Positions 12,601-52,805 of a stretch of 64,000 nucleotides of DNA are shown here, piece after piece. This stretch comes from Daphnia pulex (lineage: Eukaryota; Arthropoda; Branchiopoda; Diplostraca; Daphniidae), in assembly GCF_021134715.1 (NCBI RefSeq), contig NC_060017.1, forward strand, positions 5,580,001-5,644,000, in the 5' to 3' direction. A model generated the notes under the pieces. The model was not told the DNA's origin. It searched no databases and was given only the letters and a program-made list of their open reading frames with translations. Every line of letters starts with the position of its first letter. Positions within the stretch are counted from its first letter, which is position 1. Position numbers and translations under genes: made by a program.

Positions 12601-13468
12601 AAATCGTCATTTCATTTTATTTATTATTTCTTACAAATTTTAGACACAACAATCGGCAATATAAGGATTCCACCTGCAAACAAGAAAATCTATAAGTAAC
12701 TTTGAAAAAACACAAAATGTGTTATCAATATTTAACAGCCTCAGAAAGTGATTGGTGGTCAAGGCTGTCGTCATTCAAACAGTCAAGAGTAGCAAATATA
12801 GGTTCCATCATTTACAAAACAAAGTTACTTAAAATAAACTAAAGCCAATACCTTCAGAGGCAGTTTGATTGCCGCAGACAACAGCTCCTAAAAATGAAAG
12901 GATACGACGAAATTAAATACCATGTCATGCAACTAACAATTGGAAAAACAATTAATATGCCTCAGATCGGCAAATTATTTATATCTTCCTTTGTTTCAGA
13001 TGATTATAATAATCATCATAAAATTGCACGTTTCTGGCACACGACCAAGAGTAAAATAATCACCTCCACGACGAACTTCTGGCCACACCTGCAGAAATAA
13101 AAAGACTACTGTAAAATCAACAACAACCAAAGAAACATAATTTTCTAAATAGTAAATCAGATCGCAATATCTTCCTTAGATTCAGATGACCTATGCTAGA
13201 TTATCATCATTTAAAATTATAAAATAGGAATTCATCAAATCAACCCACCTTCAATGATGGAGCAAATCCAGGCAAAGGCAGCTGTCAATTCACTAACCTG
13301 CAAGAAATGAAACTGGTTTACTACAAGAAACACAACCACCATACTTGAGCTCACTATGACAAAATTGGTCAGTTAGAGCTAATACATGCTTCCTCCACAA
13401 TAAATGTCAGGAATAATTTTGGATCATCATGAAAATTTTTTTACAATGATTAAACATGCATGCTTACA
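12601..13468 (-). other. Spliced, apparently non-coding tail downstream of the METTL6 stop
   Basis: On the minus strand a donor (GATGAT|GTAAGC) lies one base after the METTL6 stop. It is followed by four small blocks bounded by good acceptor and donor signals: 13297-13249, 13088-13064, 12887-12852, and a terminal block from 12673 ending near overlapping AATAAA signals (TTTATT on the plus strand near 12617). Joined, they give no frame longer than a few tens of codons. The simplest reading is a spliced 3' UTR or alternative 3' exons of METTL6; a separate small gene is possible. Confidence 0.45.
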
Positions 13469-14503
13469 TCATCTCTTGATGAATTTCCCTTGAACAAAGA
13501 CCCGCGGTTCGTCCACGCCTTCCTTTTTGTTTACCGTTCTCCTGTTCACATAATGGCAACTGGAAACGTCAAATCCGGCGTCGGCCACTAAGTTTGTTAG
13601 GCGCTCAACAGAAAAGAAATACGACCTACAGAAATAAAATATTTTAGAATAATGTATACATAAAATAGTAAGACAATGAAATTTACCTTGTACCATCCTG
13701 CCTAACATAAAAATTGTCCCCAATCTTGTTTCCCCTTCCAAAGCGAAGTTGGGCCATATCATAAAGACCATAGTCTCGAAATACCAAGACCCCACCAGGC
13801 TTAAGAATAGCAGAAGCTGAGTGCAGAGCTTGTTGGAATTTGTCTGGGTGAATGGCTGAAAGAACGAAGATGAGGCTCACCACATCAACCAACTCCGGAA
13901 TATTATCCTCCAATCTAGAATTGCCAAAAGAAAAAGGTTAATGTGGAAAAATTTATGGAAAAGTCTTTCTTATTAAAGCAAAGTATCAGATAGGGGCGAA
14001 AGACTAAATGCCAATTTCCTGCACTGTCATTAGGACAAAGTTGTGTCATCACATTTAATCAAAAAATAATACAATTTGAATAATTCTCACCTGTCTTTTG
14101 TAATGTCACAGACAAAAACTTTCATCCTCTCTTCATTAAATCTGAGATCACCCTTGACGAACTCAACCGCCCTCGGGGAAAAGTCGCAGCCGTAAATGTA
14201 GAGGTTAGCATTTTCTTCCAATAACGGAAACAGGAAATTTCCGACTCCACACCCGATTTCTAGAAGAGTTTTCTTGGTATCACCATCGATTCCGACCAAC
14301 AGCTCAAACTCTCGAGTAGTCCAATGACGATCCCGGAAAAACCTCGTATCATTCCTCTTGTAAAATAGGTCCCAATTCTTTTGAGCTTCGGCTTCTAGCT
14401 TCGATCTCTTGAATTCGGATACAACAGTCTCATCTTGTTTCTTCAATCTGTTCTCTTCTTCTTCTGTCAAGACTCGATGTGTGTTCGAGGCAATGCCCTC
14501 CAT
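13469..14503 (-). CDS. METTL6: METTL6, tRNA N3-methylcytidine methyltransferase
   Basis: Three coding exons (14503-14091, 13914-13687, 13625-13469) encode 265 residues, close to the ~280 of animal METTL6. Conserved blocks in order: [29 protein letters not shown]-binding motif [65 protein letters not shown] and NKKEG...PRVFVQGKF near the end. The family methylates C32 of serine tRNAs to m3C, helped by seryl-tRNA synthetase. The chosen start gives an N-terminus collinear with vertebrate METTL6. An upstream exon (ending 14667) carries an ATG whose frame overlaps this start. The stop is followed at once by a splice donor, so transcripts may have a spliced 3' UTR. Confidence 0.93.
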
Positions 14504-44684: not shown

Positions 44685-45523
44685 TCTTCAAAATGACACA
44701 AATTTCGATAACTATTTAAGAAAAAAGCAATAACAAAAATTGGACTTAAACAACTTCATTCAATCGGCTGCACATGATATTTGAATCAACAACGTTGCCA
44801 AATTTATGTGAGTAACGGACATAATGCATGCCGTAAATTATATCTATTTGAAATTTGACTTGTTATTTATTTATTTGTCACCCATGACAAATGGTAAAGC
44901 AATTATTTACAACGAATTCATCTCCAATTCTCTTTTTATTGGCGACAAACACGTTAGACTTGGAGAGAATAACAAAGTGAGCGACATTCGGTTACATTAC
45001 ATACAAAAAAATAGACTTGTGTAATTCTCATGGCCTCGAAAATTTAACAGACAAGATTAAAGTATAATTTTCAAAAGCTGAAACTTATGTCACCGATTGA
45101 TTTATTGACACTGTTGTAATAAATGTAAAAATTCACTTAAGGAGTCAGTATAAAAATCTGGTATCAGAAGGTGTTGTTGTTTATTATTTTGGTTCTGTTC
45201 AACTTGTCTCAGGCTTGTAAGTTGTAACGCCAGTTAAGACAAGAGAGTTATTCAACAGTTCTTTTCAAAACTTGTGTTTGTATTGCACTTGTAAATAGTT
45301 GCATAAGTTATTGCCTTTTTTTATTCCCCTTTGAAGCTACTTTACTTGCGTTTTCCAGATTACTCTCAAGAGATTCAATGAAAAGCAAAAATAACTTGAT
45401 TCCCCTATTTCTTATTTAGGTTTTTATTTTTCTCGCGCGGTTGTTCGCGTTGCCATTTCGTTCCCACTCGAGCTGAGCAACATGTAATGACAAATTAAAA
45501 TTTATATTTCATTCTACTGTCGT
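44685..45523. other. Divergent region upstream of CDC16
   Basis: Holds the CDC16 promoter and the likely start region of the plus-strand non-coding transcript. A GC-rich patch with pyrimidine-rich start (TTTTTCTCGCGCGG, about 45425-45440) would fit a 5' oligopyrimidine-type start site, as snoRNA hosts often have. No coding exon. Confidence 0.35.
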
Positions 45524-46508
45524 TTAATAATTTGAAAAATATTTTATTGAAGCTAAAGCCTAAAAATAAAACATATTAGTTTATTCATATGATTAATGAT
45601 AAATGATTTTATATGTTGGGAAACTCACCGGTAGAGGGAATCCGTCATACTCGAAGACGTGAGTGACAGGCACATTTGACTTCACTTGAACATTGGCAAT
45701 GAGACAGAGACAGTCAAGGTCTGTTAGTTCTGCAAGGAAAGTTACTTAAAATCGTTTTTGAGATTAGTGTTACATTCTGTTATTTTGTTGAGTTAACTGA
45801 AGGGTGTCCAAGTTTTCTGTAGTGTAGTTATTTATAGTATGCTTGATTTCAATGTGATTCACATCGTTTCGTATTATATCATCGCCATGCTTCCGAACGT
45901 GGTAAACGTGGTAAACGTGGTAAGTAATTTCCTGGCTTGTTGCAGTCCTGATGTTAGATGATGTTCTTTCGAGTCTCGTTCGTATGAATATGACAAGGTC
46001 AATTTATTGATTCCAAACTAAACTCATCTGATTTTTTAAATACTGTTCTCACTTTCCATCTTTTTTCTTCACTGAGCTGATCTATGCATTTTTATTTAGG
46101 TAATTCAGCTGTAGGAGTTGTAACTTCGTGAAACAATCTCTGGAGATTTGCTCAGGTAACTTTATTCTCATTATGTAAAGAAATAAATGAGTGATGAAAC
46201 AACTTACCCAATCTGAGGTGGAATGATGTATCACTTAATTCATCCTTACCTACATTCTCTGAAGTGCATTTAAATTTAAAAATATTGTGTTGTCCACCCC
46301 AGTTCTTATACATGTCTGTTCTCACAGGTAGTGCATCTACCTGTCTCATGCTGTGAAAGGAAAATGTAGAGGTGTGTATTATTTTCAATTCTAACTCGTT
46401 TTCTTGTACTATGTGATGATTTGTTATCCCTGTCATACAAAATGTTGGTGACATCTTAACAATGGTAACTGTAAAATTCTGAGAATGTTGTAGGTTTAAA
46501 GCAGTCAT
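45524..46508 (-). CDS. Unrecognised small three-exon gene model (tentative)
   Basis: A 100-codon open frame (46508-46208) ends at a perfect donor (TTGG|GTAAGT). It joins in phase to 45729-45629 (acceptor CTTTCCTTGCAG, donor CCG|GTGAGT) and then to 45559-45524, with a stop, giving 145 residues. Segments include NWGGQHNIFKFKC, LTDLDCLCLIANVQV and PVTHVFEYDGFPLP. An AATAAA sits inside the last exon, close to the stop. I do not recognise a family. The model lies antisense to the candidate snoRNA host and overlaps two snoRNA-like elements, so only one of the two readings may be right here. Confidence 0.3.
45897..45923 (+). repeat. Three tandem ACGTGGTAA units carrying repeated splice-donor-like sites
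   Basis: Three perfect head-to-tail 9-bp units. Each contains G|GTAA; the last runs into GTAAGT, a full donor consensus, and is the likely 3' end of an early exon of the plus-strand transcript. The other two give GTAAAC, weaker donors. Confidence 0.75.
46184..46272 (+). ncRNA. Box C/D snoRNA candidate 1
   Basis: Box C GTGATGA (46191-46197), D' CTGA (46213-46216), C' ATGATGT (46223-46229), box D CTGA (46259-46262), with a 6-bp flanking stem TAAATG/CATTTA. Lies in the host intron 46156-46550. It overlaps the tentative minus-strand exon ending at 46208, so the two readings compete. Confidence 0.45.
46408..46488 (+). ncRNA. Box C/D snoRNA candidate 2
   Basis: Box C GTGATGA (46413-46419) and box D CTGA (46479-46482) are 70 nt apart end to end, a normal size. 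A C'-like GGTGACA lies between. The terminal stem is weak. Same intron as candidate 1, and likewise antisense to the tentative minus-strand coding frame. Confidence 0.3.
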
Positions 46509-46848
46509 GCTCTTGGTTTTTTTTTTTCTAAACTGATGTTCTGGTTACAGGGCTTCCGATGGGAGGCGGGGTCGACCGTTTTTCGTTTCCTAGTCAGCGA
46601 CGTGTCCCACAGGTAAATTTAGTGTCTCGTTGTGGTGGTTTGCAGCGAATGATTATTTTCTTATACCGCCCCAGTCTGAAGGACAGTGTTGATTGGTTTT
46701 TTCTCAATGACAATTTTTATCGTCTATTTTCCCTCTGGTTGAGTTTTTTAAGGTTTTAATGTGGTCTTGTTTTATTTTTGCAGGATTGTCTTTTGTTGGT
46801 GGGATGTTGGATGACAGGTAATAGTGGAATCTTTTTGTAAATCATATT

Positions 46849-46940
46849 TTCTTTAATTGATGATAGCTAAGTACGATGCATCCGTTATACGCGATGGCTC
46901 TGCAACAAAATCATGAAATCTCTTGCCCTCACTGAAAGAA
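46849..46940 (+). ncRNA. Box C/D snoRNA candidate 3
   Basis: Box C TGATGA (46858-46863), box D CTGA (46932-46935), closing stem TTCTT (46849-46853) with AAGAA (46936-46940). A C'-like ATGAAA precedes the presumed guide CTCTTGCCCTCA next to box D. Sits in host intron 46818-47001. Confidence 0.55.
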
Positions 46941-47569
46941 CGACTTTACTGCATAGTTGGACTTGGGTAGGAGTTAATTAAATTATCTTTTTTTACTTCA
47001 GGTGCTTGCAGCTTGATTTTCTGGATTTCATTCTGTGGAGGCTTATGTGACCGAGTGGTGGCTGTCGTATGTCTTTCAGGTACTGAGTTGGCTAAGGAAA
47101 ATTAATTGGGCTGTAATGTTCTTAAGCATATGCCTGATAAACCACACGGTTTTGATCTCAAGCAGGCTATTGAGCTCATTACTTCGGATTTCTAAGGATC
47201 ATTTGATCTAACTTTGTATTTTATTGTCTCGGGTGATGGTGTGCAGCTCTCGATTCTACAATGCAGAAATTTTTGAGGTAATTACAAGTCTTGTCAATAA
47301 ATTACTATTCCGATCGCCACGCCTCCTCCTCAATCGATGGGGAGGAAGGTGCCTAAATTACGAACGGGGAAATTATGGTCACGTAGGAAGCAACTGAGAT
47401 TGCATTGATCTTCAGGTTGTGCCTTAAACGGAGACGACACTGGGCGTAGATGGACATTTAAGTTTATTGTTAACTTTCTATTTCAGTCTTTCTGTACCGT
47501 GTGATGCCGTGCCGCCGAAGTATTAGTGAGTGGCAGGTAACTGTTAATTTCCTAGTTTTTCCACTTAAC

Positions 47570-47638
47570 GTCCCATATGATTTTTCATCTTTCGGGTCTG
47601 AATGTATTTGGATGACAACTTATTTTTGCTGATGGAAC
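47570..47638 (+). ncRNA. Box C/D snoRNA candidate 4
   Basis: Box C-like ATGATTT (47577-47583), D' CTGA (47598-47601), C'-like GGATGAC, box D CTGA (47629-47632). Closing stem GTCCCAT/ATGGAAC with one mismatch. Sits in host intron 47537-47703. Box C departs from consensus at the end. Confidence 0.5.
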
Positions 47639-47846
47639 ATTGTATTAAGTTTCATCATTTCTTTTATATGATACTTTTTAACGTGGTAAATTTTTTTCGA
47701 AAGGTTGCGATGTGGTGCGGTTTGCAGCTAGCTTTGTCAAGGCGGATCTTCTCAGGTAATGTTTACAGGGCTTGCTGGTTTTTGCGTTTCGTCCTGTTGC
47801 CAAACGTGTATTTTTATTTTAGTATTGCTAAGTATTGTCAGTTTAG

Positions 47847-47923
47847 AGAATAGTGTGATGGAAGCTTAGCATTTGTGCATTGGGTTCTGAATTTCACAAT
47901 AATTGTTATTTCTGATTTATTGT
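47847..47923 (+). ncRNA. Box C/D snoRNA candidate 5
   Basis: Box C GTGATGG (47855-47861), D' CTGA (47887-47890), box D CTGA (47912-47915), closing stem AATA/TATT. In host intron 47756-48245. Confidence 0.4.
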
Positions 47924-48344
47924 TTTGATCGTTTCGTGCATGGACGAACTGAGGAAGTATTGAGTTAGCATCAAAATTAAGTTGAAATGCTTGAAATGCT
48001 CTCGTCTTGTATCTCACAGAATTCCCTATTAGTCTTAACCAGTGAATATTTGTTATCTAGACGGTTATCCTAGAATTGTGAGATGAGACTGGAGGATTTT
48101 AGGAAATTTACAACAAAGGCACAAAGGTTTCTGAAGTCAATCAAAATATTAGACATGCATGACTCTGAGGAAAGCTATTTTTTTTGTATTGAATGAAGTC
48201 TTGATTCCTATTAATCCATGTGTTTTGAAACCTTCATTTATTTAGGTGCCAAGAAGAAGAGGTTGCTTTGGGGTTTCCTGTGGGTGCCTTCTGTATGATG
48301 TGGAGGTATGTTATATACTCATTAAAGCAGGGTTCTGTGTTGAT

Positions 48345-48427
48345 TTAAAGTGATGACATAAGATTTCTGTGTCCAGGCCAATGATCATTAATGATATTAA
48401 ACTATTTTGGTGACTACTGATTTTTAT
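48345..48427 (+). ncRNA. Box C/D snoRNA candidate 6
   Basis: Box C GTGATGA (48350-48356), C'-like ATGATAT near 48391, box D CTGA (48417-48420), AT-only closing stem of about 4 bp. In the host intron after 48305. Good box spacing. Confidence 0.5.
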
Positions 48428-48936
48428 ATATTGGAAATACTAGTAGCCATCTTCTGCACAATATTAACTGTTTCTATTTGGGTATTAGGTTGTTTTTGGG
48501 TAATAGCCTGGTGGACTTCAACCCACAGGAGCTGCTGGACCAACAGCCTAGGATGTTGCTGCTGCAAATATTCTGGTATGGATAGTTAAAATTTATTCGT
48601 CGATTTACCCATGACGATATCATATTTCCAGAGATACAATGGTGGTACAAACTGATTTATTGAGACTGAGAAAACTACACTTGTCAAAATACGAGACATT
48701 TCGTGTAACTCGTTTTAACGAGTTTTATTTTAGGCGGCCGCGCATATTAAGGACTGAACTGTTACTGTACAATTGCAAACGATATAGTCTTCCTTTAACA
48801 GGCGAGAAACAGGCCGTCACAGTAATTCAAGTATTCGTCTTCTGAAATTCGCTCAATCCTTAATCTGTCGTCCTTAGATGCCGTGTTATAGTGGGAAGTC
48901 AACGTACAGGTAATTATCAGAACTTTGTGCATTTGG

Positions 48937-49014
48937 AAATTAACATGATGGATTGTAAAACTTTCTGACATCTCTTCTGAGTTCATCATTGAAGATATCT
49001 TTACAGCTGAATTT
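48937..49014 (+). ncRNA. Box C/D snoRNA candidate 7
   Basis: Box C ATGATGG (48945-48951), D' CTGA (48965-48968 or 48977-48980), box D CTGA (49007-49010), closing stem AAATT (48937-48941) with AATTT (49010-49014). In host intron 48910-49078. Confidence 0.5.
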
Positions 49015-50401
49015 TTGAATAAACTAATAGTTATGGAGTGAGGCTTAGGTAATGGTTCAAAAATTTGTTTAGTTTCAGGTCAATACTTCGCAGCTTCATC
49101 TAGCATTACCTTACAGCGCGACATGTATTCAGGTTGGTATAAGTTTGTTGGCATACCCCACTAATTAAGCCGATTGATTAAGTCCCAAACTGGCTATTCT
49201 TTGGTATACGGTGGGAACAGTAAATGCTATTCCGTGTAAGGTCTTCTACCCAATTGCTTTGGTGGGATATCTAAGGGTTGAATCAGCAATATATTATAAT
49301 AATAAGCTAATTGTTGTATTCGAATTCTTGCTTTCAGTTCGGAGGCTGCTATTCTTTCGTGGAACGTTGTCTGAGTCGGTTTCTAGCTCATTCTTGGATA
49401 TCCTTTCATTGTTGAATTAAATTGGAAATTCACTTAATTTGTTACACAGTTAATTTTTTGTATCATAACTTTGTTTCTCAAATACAAATTTCAGGGAATT
49501 TCTAAAGGATGTGTGTGATTTTTATAAACTATCTCTGTTATGTACTAAATTGTACTATGACTGTTCAAAAACATTTGGTCTGTGGCAAAGTCGATTGTGA
49601 ATGTCAGTACTGACCGTTCGTATTGGTCGCTCTTCAATACCTTTAGGCAAATGGAAATGACACCTCCCTTGGCTAATACAAAAGGAGTTCAAGAGTCAAG
49701 ACAAATGAAAATAAATGTAAAAGAAAATGGAGAATACTTCATTCTACCTTACAAATTTAATTAGATGCCCATGCAGTTCTTAGAGTGAAAATGATTGAGC
49801 TAGGCTAGGAATATGCTGTTGTTGTGAGACAGGTAACAGGTTTTAGTGTGGAAATGATTTTTCATAATCATATCATTTGTGATTGACATGACATTTGTTG
49901 TTGCTTGTGCTTGTTGTATTATGCCACAATGAATAGAAACACATTCTGAATAACTGGGAGGTTTACCTTACGAACTGGGTGTTTTTCCTTTTAGAAATCC
50001 ACTGTCCAAGCGATGTTGCCCGGGTTACTTACAGATGGCAAGGCACATGGATGAACGAATATCACGCCTTCTCCTCATTGCTGTAGAAGTTATCATCTTG
50101 GGGATTTCGTCTGTTGTGATGCTGCGTGGTGGCTTGAAATTTGGCAGGGAGAATGTCACGTGAGTATCAAAGTTATTTGTTAACTTTGTTTGTTAGTTTT
50201 TTCAACTGAGTGTCACCGAACTTCAGCGAACAATTGTTTTCATATATACTTTTTATAAACGTTTCTCCTTTCTGTCGCTAGACTGCATTGATCATTTTTT
50301 ACCTGTCAGAATCAGTTAAGTTACGTTTACTTTGCACATCTCTGAAGAAATTTCTCTCTGCTACTTCAAAGAAATTTTGTGTGATAGCAGTTAGTTTGTG
50401 T

Positions 50402-50806
50402 TTGAGCAAGAGCAAAGCTCACTTATTATATTTTAGATTTTTAATAATGGAGATGTTTTTTCTACTTCCGATTTTCTCATTTCTGTCAGTAGTTCAGTAA
50501 ATATTCATCTGACTCATAAAATAACCACATATTCGTGATCCTCGTCAAAATTTGTTGTAAAGTTAATGTTTTTTGTACGTACGCGTACTTCCGGTTTCGA
50601 GAATTATCCCTGTTCAGGAAAATTCTGGATTTTGACCAAATTCTCGATTTCGTTTAAAATACACTTCATCGTCCCAAATTTCACGTAGATCACGAATATT
50701 ATTTGGTTTATTTGGTCGGAAGCTCAATGTTTGAGGCGCTATCACTTACTTCCGGTATACTTCCGAAAAATTTGCATAAAACTAGCAAGTGAGCTTTGTT
50801 CTCTGC
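50402..50806. repeat. Short inverted repeat in a host intron
   Basis: AGCAAAGCTCACTT near 50408-50424 recurs inverted as AAGTGAGCTTTGTTCT near 50785-50802. About 360 bp with several ACTTCCGG motifs lies between. It may be a small non-autonomous element; no coding capacity. Confidence 0.5.
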
Positions 50807-52283
50807 ACAATTCTAAAGACTCCTTGCCAGTTTAAACAAACTAAAATAGTCATTTTGATTACTTCTGTGACTATCTATAAGGCCGGTTCTTTAGATAGTG
50901 AGTTTTGGACGTGTCGAATAGATGGCGTGAAAGAATATTATGTTGTCAGATATGAGCTTTGTCTAAAGTTAAGCAACAGCTCTTTTCTTCGAAAATTACA
51001 AATGAATTCGTATGTAAATTGGATAGATTTTGTGTTCAATTTGTTTGATATGTGTTCTTTTCTGTTAATGTGTTTAATAACTTAAATATTTCTCATTAAT
51101 TTTTTCCATGAGAAAATGTGAAAGGAGCGAGATGCAGCCTACTGTCAACTATTGTGTGAAAAATCCTGGTATCATCCTACTGAATATGTCATCCAAATGA
51201 CAGAGGTGGTGAGTGGTGACAGAACCAACACTAGCTTTAGTACAAATTTTGCTGGAACTATATTGTTCTTTTTTTTTATATTAGGATTTATCCAAAATAT
51301 TGGCTGATTCTATTGGACATGCTAGATCGTTTTATCCCTAGAATAGACCAATCTTTCATTCAATCTTCTAGAGAACCTTGGATAACTGATTGGTGGTTTT
51401 GTGTTAGTTTATTTGTCATGTCACTGAACTTTCTTTGTTGCAGTCTAATAATATGTATTCAAATTATCGATCTAAAAGTAGAACTTTTCTAAAAGAAAAT
51501 CTTTTCTAAAAGTAGAACTTTAGTTAAAGTAGCCCTCAGCCCCTCACATCTATCTAAAAATGTTTAAAAAGACTCTTTCAACTGTGTACTGATTACTGTT
51601 CAATTATTCTTTTAGATCATCGATGTCAAGCACATTGTTGAAAACTAATTATAAACAAGGTGACTTAATTTTCTTGTTTTTTATTTACAGGTTTTAAACT
51701 ATAGGTATCTAAATTTGCACGACGTCCTTCAACGTTCTTGGACTGACGTCAGTCAGCAAGGTAGGCTACCTTGTTTGGTAACCTGTTGGCTGCTTCCCTT
51801 GAATCCCCCTTTTTGCTTCTTTAAGCTTGATTTGAGGTATTGCTTTCTGTCGCTCAAATATTGTTGAAAATTATTGTCAAATTAATAAATGTTCATTCTG
51901 CCTACAGGGTAACTCCTTCACTACTTATCATGGACTTCATCCATTGGTGATGCTGTAATTCGATTTCAAGACTGATAAATTGTTTAGTCAGATAAAACAA
52001 GTGCATATCTGGGCTCCCTGCTTTTCTGTGGCCCCGTTTCCCTAACTAACCACTAACCAACGCCCGCCGGTGGTCACTCACCCGCTGTGAAACCAGGAGG
52101 AGGGGAGGGCTCTGGTCGAACGGGGACTTGGAAGGCGCATGATCCGACGAAAACTTTTAGAGGGTCATGAGTCTAACCCGGAAGCCTAGTAGTGACTAAT
52201 CGCTCCCCAGTAAAACTTGCCTCGCACTCTTCTCTCCTCTTCCATTTCCAGGTAATCTCCCTGGATCTACGCCGACACTGCAT

Positions 52284-52805
52284 GTGTGAGTTTTGGCGAG
52301 CAATCCGCCACCCAATTTGACAAAAAGTGATAGTTTGTTTTCACGGAAATTGCGTCAGACGGTTAAAAAATTTCTAATTCAACAATCTCACGTAGAAATT
52401 AGCATCTAGTCTACTGGTGCAAATTGTGATTCTTTAAGCTTGATTAATTTATGTGATGTGTTAAAAGCTATTGTGAGTAGCCAATAAATTGAACTAATTC
52501 GCTTTTTCAGAATAATTTGAAGAAAGATCACAAGAAAATTTAAAAACAACAGTGATCTAAAACCAAAATATTCAGAAAAGTGGATTAGTTCAATTTTTTA
52601 GCTACCCACAATCGCTTTTAACACATCACCTAAATTAATCAAGCTTAAAGAATCGCAATTTGCACCAGTAGACTAGATGCTAATTTCTACACGAGATTTT
52701 TTAACTAGAAATTTTTTAACCGTCTGACGCAATTTCCGTGAAAACAATCTACCACTTTTTGTCAAATTGGGTGGCGGATTGCTTGCTAAAAAGCCTCGCA
52801 CGAAA
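52284..52805. repeat. Large fold-back element with ~220-bp inverted arms
   Basis: Left arm about 52299-52516 and right arm about 52565-52783 are near-identical in inverted orientation, with a spacer of about 50 bp. Weaker pairing extends outward to about 52284 and 52805. Shared landmarks: GCAATCCGCCACCCAATTTG at the outer end, GTCAGACGGTTAAAAAATTT, and CTTTAAGCTTGATTAATTTA. The arms differ at scattered sites, so the element is not new. No transposase frame; best read as a MITE or fold-back transposon. Confidence 0.9.

Follow-up and report, generated by a model that had tools for sequence, protein, structure and literature searches.

We analysed a 64,000-nucleotide (nt) stretch of the Daphnia pulex genome (NC_060017.1, forward strand; hereafter the window) and found on its plus strand, from ~45,890 to 49,132, a chain of ~14 short exons (28–176 nt) separated by GT–AG introns, 12 of 13 of which measure 158–209 nt. 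Eleven introns contain a candidate box C/D small nucleolar RNA (snoRNA) and one contains an H/ACA-like RNA, with one snoRNA per intron. A preliminary description of this DNA had proposed a host gene of the UHG/SNHG type. We likewise read the locus as a non-coding snoRNA host gene of this type (Uhg in flies), with a probability of about 0.93, because its layout, the placement of the boxes 64–68 nt before the 3′ splice sites and the guides on published methylation sites of ribosomal RNA (rRNA) are what such a host predicts. The introns, and not the exons, appear to be the product of the gene.

Exon chain and intronic box C/D pairs

The exon chain was drawn by eye from 44.5–53.5 kilobases (kb) of the window (Table 1), and the short exons with splice signals that had been described before were recovered on the plus strand. 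The outer limits given earlier, 45,424 and 52,000, were not supported. Exon 1 had been placed at ~45,432–45,483 (also given as 45,424–45,483), where the donor is weaker. Because the donor GTAAGTAATT at 45,920 yields an intron 1 of 180 nt, similar to the neighbouring introns, and because it places exon 1 directly behind a CTTCC at ~45,890, we consider a start of the host gene near 45,890 more likely than one near 45,424. Judged from sequence only, this CTTCC ahead of a strong donor resembles a 5′ terminal oligopyrimidine (5′TOP)/TCT start. No CACGTG E-box was found in 44,701–46,200.

Box pairs were defined strictly: the C box had to match at 6 or more of its 7 positions and contain a TGA core, and an exact CTGA had to follow 48–112 nt later and end 58–82 nt before the 3′ splice site. 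Such pairs stand at 8 of the 18 modelled acceptors (introns 1, 2, 3, 5, 9a, 10, 11 and 12), and their distances from the end of the D box to the 3′ splice site (Table 1) average 66.8 nt with a standard deviation of 1.5. Among the 15 introns with defined ends, 8 were positive compared to 0.15 expected from 1000 shuffles of each intron (P = 2.7 × 10−13); with the distance condition dropped, the expectation rose to 0.68 (P = 4.4 × 10−8). The antisense strand of the model introns gave 1 positive. In the subset of 11 introns whose ends were fixed before the spacing test, which omits introns 1, 9a, 9b and 11 (ends set or changed afterwards), 5 were positive compared to 0.10 expected (P = 1.8 × 10−8). 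Introns 4 and 6, with degenerate boxes, and intron 8, with a more distant D box, fall outside the strict rule.

A model-free count, in which acceptor-like sites were taken by rule, gave 6 positives among 33 sites on the plus strand of 45,432–52,000. Five of these, at 46,099, 46,327, 47,001, 48,019 and 48,488, are the acceptors of introns 1, 2, 5, 9a and 10, so that the acceptor of the possible exon 9b was also found in this way; the sixth, at 50,281, lies outside the model. The minus strand of the same region gave 0 of 22. Elsewhere in the window, 4 of 224 plus-strand and 8 of 193 minus-strand sites were positive, and 7 of these 8 (from 12 sites) fell into a second box C/D cluster at 12.6–14.1 kb. 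The difference is significant with this cluster left out of the remainder (6/33 vs 5/427, Fisher P = 3.1 × 10−5) and with it included (12/439, P = 7 × 10−4). Published work places box C/D snoRNAs ~70 nt upstream of the 3′ splice site, both for vertebrates and for one fly cluster (PMC1821038), or ~50 nt ahead of the branch point (PMC8162545).

The claim of C and D boxes at correct spacing is borne out at 8 of the 15 introns. In place of the seven candidates listed earlier, we count the 11 box C/D candidates and one H/ACA-like candidate given above. The terminal stems that had also been claimed found no support, with a mean score of 2.55 vs 2.31 at random anchors (P = 0.28) and single scores of 4–6 in introns 6, 8 and 10. 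A terminal stem is usual in box C/D snoRNAs and often weak in animals. An earlier scan that required such a stem gave 5 hits on the plus and 0 on the minus strand of 45,001–52,400, and 13 on both strands of the other 113 kb; it recovered introns 1, 5, 9a and 10 but none of the other candidates in our list, and it added one element (47,501) whose C box lies in exon 8. A combined box/guide score, evaluated with 100 shuffles, placed 6 of 16 introns at the minimum P of 0.010.

Guide sequences and candidate intronic RNAs

For the comparison with rRNA, locus L082 supplied the 18S, the 5.8S and the initial 441 nt of the 28S, to which provisional (unverified) segments of human 18S and 28S were added. 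L082 (1188–4122), in a Chlamydiae metagenome bin, is a contamination that comprises eukaryotic 18S, 5.8S and the start of 28S. A scan for 5.8S motifs had yielded 42 stretches in viral contigs and at least 112 in genome contigs (80 taken as loci); among the 122 loci, L082 alone contained an exact match to a motif of 18S or 28S, and two scans of the viral contigs revealed no 28S motif.

Guides were defined as Watson–Crick runs of at least 10 nt starting 0–2 nt upstream of CTGA. On the plus strand of 45,432–49,132, 5 of 30 CTGA boxes had a guide, compared to 0 of 12 on the minus strand there and 7 of 435 elsewhere (5/30 vs 7/447 for all others, P = 4 × 10−4); two of the seven elsewhere, 17 and 18 nt long, belong to the second cluster. 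Complementary runs of at least 12 nt, counted with a shorter rRNA set, occurred 7 times on the plus strand of 45,401–52,000, once on its minus strand and 25 times in the remainder of the window, both strands combined (P = 7 × 10−4); the guides of introns 2, 4 and 8 account for three of the seven.

Methylation targets were read by the fifth-nucleotide (N5) rule (PMC8162545). N5 positions in 18S were computed on the provisional segments, and 28S sites were fitted by hand, their numbering not being computed. Six introns have guides of 10–13 nt on sites listed in papers, namely 18S A27 and A1383 and 28S G4166, U2824, G1509 and G4362; two further introns point to 18S G601 and presumably A99, and three are without a known site. 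Um2824, Gm4362, Gm4166 and Gm1509 are listed as methylation sites in PMC8817022 and PMC3511168. In PMC6466398 the target of SNORD30 in 18S appears as C1383, and because A1383 is given to another family in PMC3511168, we describe intron 1 as holding a guide for this site and not as a proven U30.

Sub-gathering Rfam matches in 45.0–52.4 kb, all on the plus strand, were SNORD31 (E = 0.0037), SNORD2 (0.068), SNORD57 (0.098), SNORD60 (0.22), snoR38 (5.2) and SNORD34 (9.9), and 12 of the 13 snoRNA-family matches listed there were on this strand. Because the weak snoR38 match lies at the same place, we assigned intron 3 to the snR38 site; the guide stands before a D′ box chosen by hand (CATA, 2 of 4 letters), and the combined-score script chose a different, weaker guide. 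The SNORD31, SNORD2 and SNORD57 matches lie in introns 4, 8 and 11, respectively, and the weak SNORD60 match in intron 12.

The H/ACA-like RNA of intron 7 fits the order hairpin–H box–hairpin–ACA, with ACA three nt from an end that was set by the motif. Its fold (47,309–47,442) has a z-score of −2.58, with 0 of 200 shuffles equally stable; the whole intron has a z-score of −1.28, and its H/ACA-like arrangement reaches −42.8 kcal/mol vs −32.6 kcal/mol for the best shuffled one (20 shuffles). Because no pseudouridylation pocket matching rRNA was found in a search of partial rRNA, we limit the name to H/ACA-like.

Three other candidates were rejected. Intron 13 folds into two hairpins and has no ACA tail, a z-score of 0.02 and a best target score (16.9) about equal to the highest from shuffles (16.8 of 25). 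In intron 9b, a CTGA lying 77 nt from the 3′ splice site follows a 13-nt stretch complementary to 18S CATGCATGTCTAA, with no C box by the strict rule. The CTGA at 51,972 has a 10-nt guide and no C box at 6 of 7.

Table 1. Modelled exons, candidate intronic RNAs and elements of the second cluster (3′ss, 3′ splice site; distances are from the D box)
Feature	Position	Strand	Signals	Guide
Exon 1 (candidate)	45,890–45,919	+	5′TOP-like start CTTCC, strong donor GTAAGTAATT; predicted from sequence	
Intron 1 C/D candidate	45,953–46,036	+	C ATGATGT 45,958; D′ ATGA 45,984; D CTGA 46,028; 68 nt to 3′ss	D′: 13 nt to 18S ACGAACGAGACTC, N5 = A1383 (13 nt with provisional human 18S, 11 with L082)
Exon 2	46,100–46,155	+	56 nt, splice signals	
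Intron 2 C/D candidate	46,186–46,267	+	C GTGATGA 46,191; D′ CTGA 46,213; C′ ATGATGT; D CTGA 46,259; 65 nt to 3′ss	D: 13 nt to 28S AATGTAGGTAAGG, SNORD34/snR62 site (Um2824), hand-fitted
Exon 3	46,328–46,371	+	44 nt, weak donor GTGTGT	
Intron 3 C/D candidate	46,408–46,487	+	C GTGATGA 46,413; D CTGA 46,479; 68 nt to 3′ss	11 nt to 28S ACAGGGATAAC, snR38 site (Gm4362), hand-fitted
Exon 4	46,551–46,612	+	62 nt, splice signals	
Intron 4 U31 candidate	46,641–46,715	+	C ATGATTA 46,649; D′ CTGA 46,676; D only ATGA 46,707; 73 nt to 3′ss	D′: 12 nt to 28S ACTGGGGCGGTA, Gm4166 site (U31/snR67), hand-fitted
Exon 5	46,784–46,817	+	34 nt, splice signals	
Intron 5 C/D candidate	46,852–46,940	+	C TTGATGA 46,857; D CTGA 46,932; 66 nt to 3′ss	D: 9 nt to 18S GAGGGCAAG, N5 = G601
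Exon 6	47,002–47,079	+	78 nt, splice signals	
Intron 6 U27 candidate	47,108–47,178	+	degenerate C GTAATGT 47,113; D′ CTGA 47,134; degenerate D TTGA 47,170; 73 nt to 3′ss	D′: to 18S GCATATGCTT, N5 = A27 (10 nt with provisional human 18S, 9 with L082)
Exon 7	47,247–47,277	+	31 nt, splice signals	
Intron 7 H/ACA-like RNA	47,309–47,442	+	two hairpins; H box AAATTA 47,370; ACA 47,437	
Exon 8	47,487–47,536	+	50 nt, splice signals	
Intron 8 SNORD2/snR39B candidate	47,570–47,638	+	C ATGATTT 47,577; D′ CTGA 47,598; D CTGA 47,629; 95 nt to 3′ss	D′: 12 nt to 28S ACCCGAAAGATG, Gm1509 site (snR39B, Rfam RF01299), hand-fitted
Exon 9	47,728–47,755	+	28 nt, splice signals	
Intron 9a C/D candidate	47,850–47,957	+	C GTGATGG 47,855; inner CTGA 47,912; D CTGA 47,949; 67 nt to proposed 3′ss 48,019	inner CTGA: 10 nt to 18S AAATAACAAT, N5 = A525, where we know of no methylation site
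Exon 9b (possible)	48,020–48,077	+	58 nt, donor GTGAGA; acceptor proposed from D-box spacing	
Exon 10	48,246–48,305	+	60 nt, splice signals	
Intron 10 C/D candidate	48,345–48,425	+	C GTGATGA 48,350; C′ ATGATCA; D CTGA 48,417; 68 nt to 3′ss	
Exon 11	48,489–48,575	+	87 nt; alternative start 48,529	
Intron 11 U57-like candidate	48,606–48,674	+	C ATGACGA 48,611; D CTGA 48,666; 64 nt to 3′ss 48,733	to 18S CTCATTAAATCAGTTT, one mismatch; site taken to be A99 (U57 site)
Exon 12	48,734–48,909	+	176 nt; alternative start 48,880; 48,734 chosen once D-box spacing was known	
Intron 12 C/D candidate	48,940–49,015	+	C ATGATGG 48,945; D′ CTGA 48,965; D CTGA 49,007; 68 nt to 3′ss	
Exon 13	49,079–49,132	+	54 nt, weak donor GTTGGT	
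snR60/U80-like	13,978–14,063	−		18 nt to 28S ATAGGGGCGAAAGACTAA
SNORD44-like	CTGA 13,372	−		17 nt to 18S TAGAGCTAATACATGCT
Two copies, alike by eye	~13,140–13,219 and 12,960–13,025	−		
SNORD24-like	12,737–12,816	−		

Weighing of the host-gene reading and the 3′ limit

Several points count against a snoRNA host gene. The exon chain is eye-drawn and several boxes had been seen during the drawing. After its first 441 nt the 28S is provisional human sequence, as is some of the 18S, and the remaining rRNA comes from the eukaryotic contaminant L082. Of the seven long complementary runs, four (48,022, 48,149, 48,957 and 50,194) have no guide assignment; the one at 48,022, with 12 nt to 28S, falls inside the proposed exon 9b, and the 12-nt run at 48,957 in intron 12 fits only the protist 18S. 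No Rfam family reached its gathering score anywhere in the 64 kb. In the whole-window search, E-values rose to 0.032 (SNORD31), 0.58 (SNORD2), 0.85 (SNORD57) and 1.9, snoR38 and SNORD34 were not listed at E 5, and one snoRNA-family match in the region, snoR104, is on the minus strand. The terminal stems of the candidate set do not exceed chance. The combined score was weaker for introns 9 (P = 0.050), 12 (0.069) and 11 (0.089) and gave no candidate in seven introns, including 6 and 8. Introns 10 and 12 showed no convincing target in the partial rRNA set, the candidates of introns 4, 6 and 8 depend on guides with degenerate or misplaced outer boxes, and the snR38 guide of intron 3 depends on a degenerate D′ box.

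One alternative is that the boxes arose by chance in AT-rich introns, the transcript being an ordinary non-coding one or wrongly drawn, with few real snoRNAs among them, for example U31 and SNORD2. The boxes are short, several guides have just 9–10 nt, the terminal stems are at chance level, and in the sense-identity control 2 of 30 boxes reached at least 10 nt, compared to 5 of 30 for complementarity. We nevertheless regard this as very improbable, because box pairs at the fixed distance are ~50-fold more frequent than in shuffles and the eight distances are tightly clustered. A protein-coding gene with snoRNAs in its introns, as in ribosomal protein genes, is slightly less improbable and would have to encode a small or fast-evolving protein. 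The spliced model (870 nt, built with the earlier exon 1) retains ATG frames of 78 and 69 amino acids (aa), and a downstream segment opens with a 42-aa frame that looks membrane-like. Against a coding gene, exon lengths are mixed in phase, the longest frame in the model is the one of 78 aa, and neither the 78-aa and 42-aa frames nor any of the 18 open reading frames (ORFs) of at least 50 aa within 45.4–52 kb (13 on the plus and 5 on the minus strand, all scanned) matched Pfam at its cut-off. Matches below the cut-off among these 18 were Pox_D5 (E = 0.075), DUF5071 (0.085) and Cas6b_C (0.045). The 69-aa frame overlaps the ORF at 48,639–48,842, and it was this ORF and not the whole frame that was scanned.

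A third alternative concerns only the 3′ limit of the host gene and comes close to an even chance: the region could hold several independent transcripts, with 49.1–52.0 kb, for example, forming a gene of its own that may be coding. Five acceptors were modelled beyond 49,132, and none of them is preceded by a correctly placed CTGA or a C/D pair; a possible poly(A) signal lies at 49,710 and a new ATG frame opens at 50,035. On the other side, splice signals are continuous across 46.1–49.1 kb, and the rule-chosen acceptor at 50,281 has a C and D pair. The exons of 49.1–52.0 kb and the 42-aa frame may belong to something else, and the frame may start a separate small coding gene. It occupies 50,035–50,159 on the plus strand, contains the membrane-like segment and is followed by a strong donor GTGAGTATC. 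At 50,206, a CTGA with 12 nt of complementarity to the protist 18S goes together with a C box (50,116) and the acceptor-like site at 50,281. This element was not counted among the parts of the host gene; its C box lies inside the 42-aa frame, and the 18S stretch lies outside the provisional human segments.

Relation to known host genes and genomic surroundings

The window is animal nuclear DNA. A Pfam scan of 10 stretches gave matches in 8 and recognised roquin, SRP68, a CTLH protein and a 2-hydroxyacid dehydrogenase fold (CtBP-like by our reading). A minus-strand gene with TPR and ANAPC3 repeats, which we read as CDC16-like, reaches to ~44.7 kb, and a calcium-insensitive EF hand at 55 kb marks a gene that we read as spectrin-like. 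A muscle myosin light chain at 30.2 kb matched best to PDB entries 3dtp and 3jbh, which we take to be from tarantula and which point to an arthropod-like source. ARAGORN, run with bacterial settings, found no tRNAs in the window. The interval between the CDC16-like and host genes contains, on the minus strand, an exon-like stretch (45,629–45,729; acceptor CTTGCAG, donor GTGAGTTT, 33 aa open, no Pfam match). Downstream, at 52,290–52,800, a long inverted repeat with arms of up to ~200 nt was seen by eye and is perhaps a small transposon. Two membrane-protein genes, at ~18.4–20.6 kb (minus strand) and 31.8–34.4 kb (plus strand), look similar by eye and have opposite orientation; one scanned stretch gave a TRC8_N match below the Pfam cut-off and that of the other gave no match.

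The second box C/D cluster (12,650–14,090, minus strand) occupies one intron and apparent 3′ untranslated region introns of a gene that we read as METTL-like, and all its Rfam matches are below the gathering score. SNORD44 is a resident of GAS5 (PMC6466398). In the Drosophila gene mfl (minifly), C/D snoRNAs lie ~70 nt before the 3′ splice site and snR60 copies occupy introns after the coding region (PMC1821038). The host gene described here resembles this invertebrate example in spacing, and the post-coding introns of mfl resemble the second cluster (12.7–14.1 kb), the host of which is METTL-like, unlike the pseudouridine synthase gene mfl.

From the sequence of the host gene we infer transcription, splicing and snoRNA production, and with them a promoter, snoRNA maturation, methylation and the fate of the spliced RNA. 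RNA polymerase II would produce a long transcript from ~45,890, and splicing would join the short exons, which would have no coding value, and release the introns. Each intronic snoRNA, its D box 64–68 nt upstream of the 3′ splice site, would be bound by C/D proteins and set free by debranching and trimming, and its guides would direct 2′-O-methylation of 18S and 28S rRNA. Intron 7 would release an H/ACA-type RNA.

Vertebrate UHG holds U22 and U25–U31, all of the C/D type, and has a 5′TOP (PMC7277114), and SNORD27, SNORD30 and SNORD31 all reside in SNHG1 (PMC6466398). The Daphnia locus is like UHG/SNHG1 in being a putative non-coding host with intronic C/D snoRNAs and in having guides for 18S A27, 18S 1383 and 28S G4166. 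Unlike UHG/SNHG1, it also has an H/ACA-like RNA and guides that fit G601 and the sites of U34, snR38, SNORD2 and U57. U22, U25, U26, U28 and U29 were not recognised here, no dedicated search for them having been made, and the 28S A3804 guide of U30 was not seen. The locus may work like UHG and may be its orthologue; because just three of the eight UHG snoRNA sites were matched (U27, U30 18S, U31), we put this no more firmly.

It is also like Drosophila Uhg1 and other Uhg genes as a putative arthropod non-coding host with many intronic snoRNAs, a likeness drawn from published descriptions of these genes. Uhg1 holds U27, U29 and U31. It contains 16 snoRNAs in total (PMC4430873), and fly clusters are numbered Uhg1–Uhg8 (PMC13228274). 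A mixture of H/ACA and C/D snoRNAs is counted as an atypical trait of one fly host (PMC5932544). Among the literature matches listed, no title dealt with a crustacean snoRNA host gene. We tentatively suggest, with the odds somewhat against it, that this locus, vertebrate UHG/SNHG1 and fly Uhg1 are one and the same host gene retained from the bilaterian ancestor, with its A27, A1383 and G4166 guides remaining together while exons and other cargo turned over and an H/ACA-type RNA was captured.

Whether host genes are inherited as units or reassembled is a question that follows from viewing snoRNAs as still mobile (PMC3511168), and the U27, U30 (18S) and U31 sites held in common bear on it. Rfam at curated cut-offs missed every candidate snoRNA of this locus, yet most of them can be recognised from the layout of the introns alone, and the spacing of 64–68 nt offers a usable search rule for host genes in poorly annotated arthropods.

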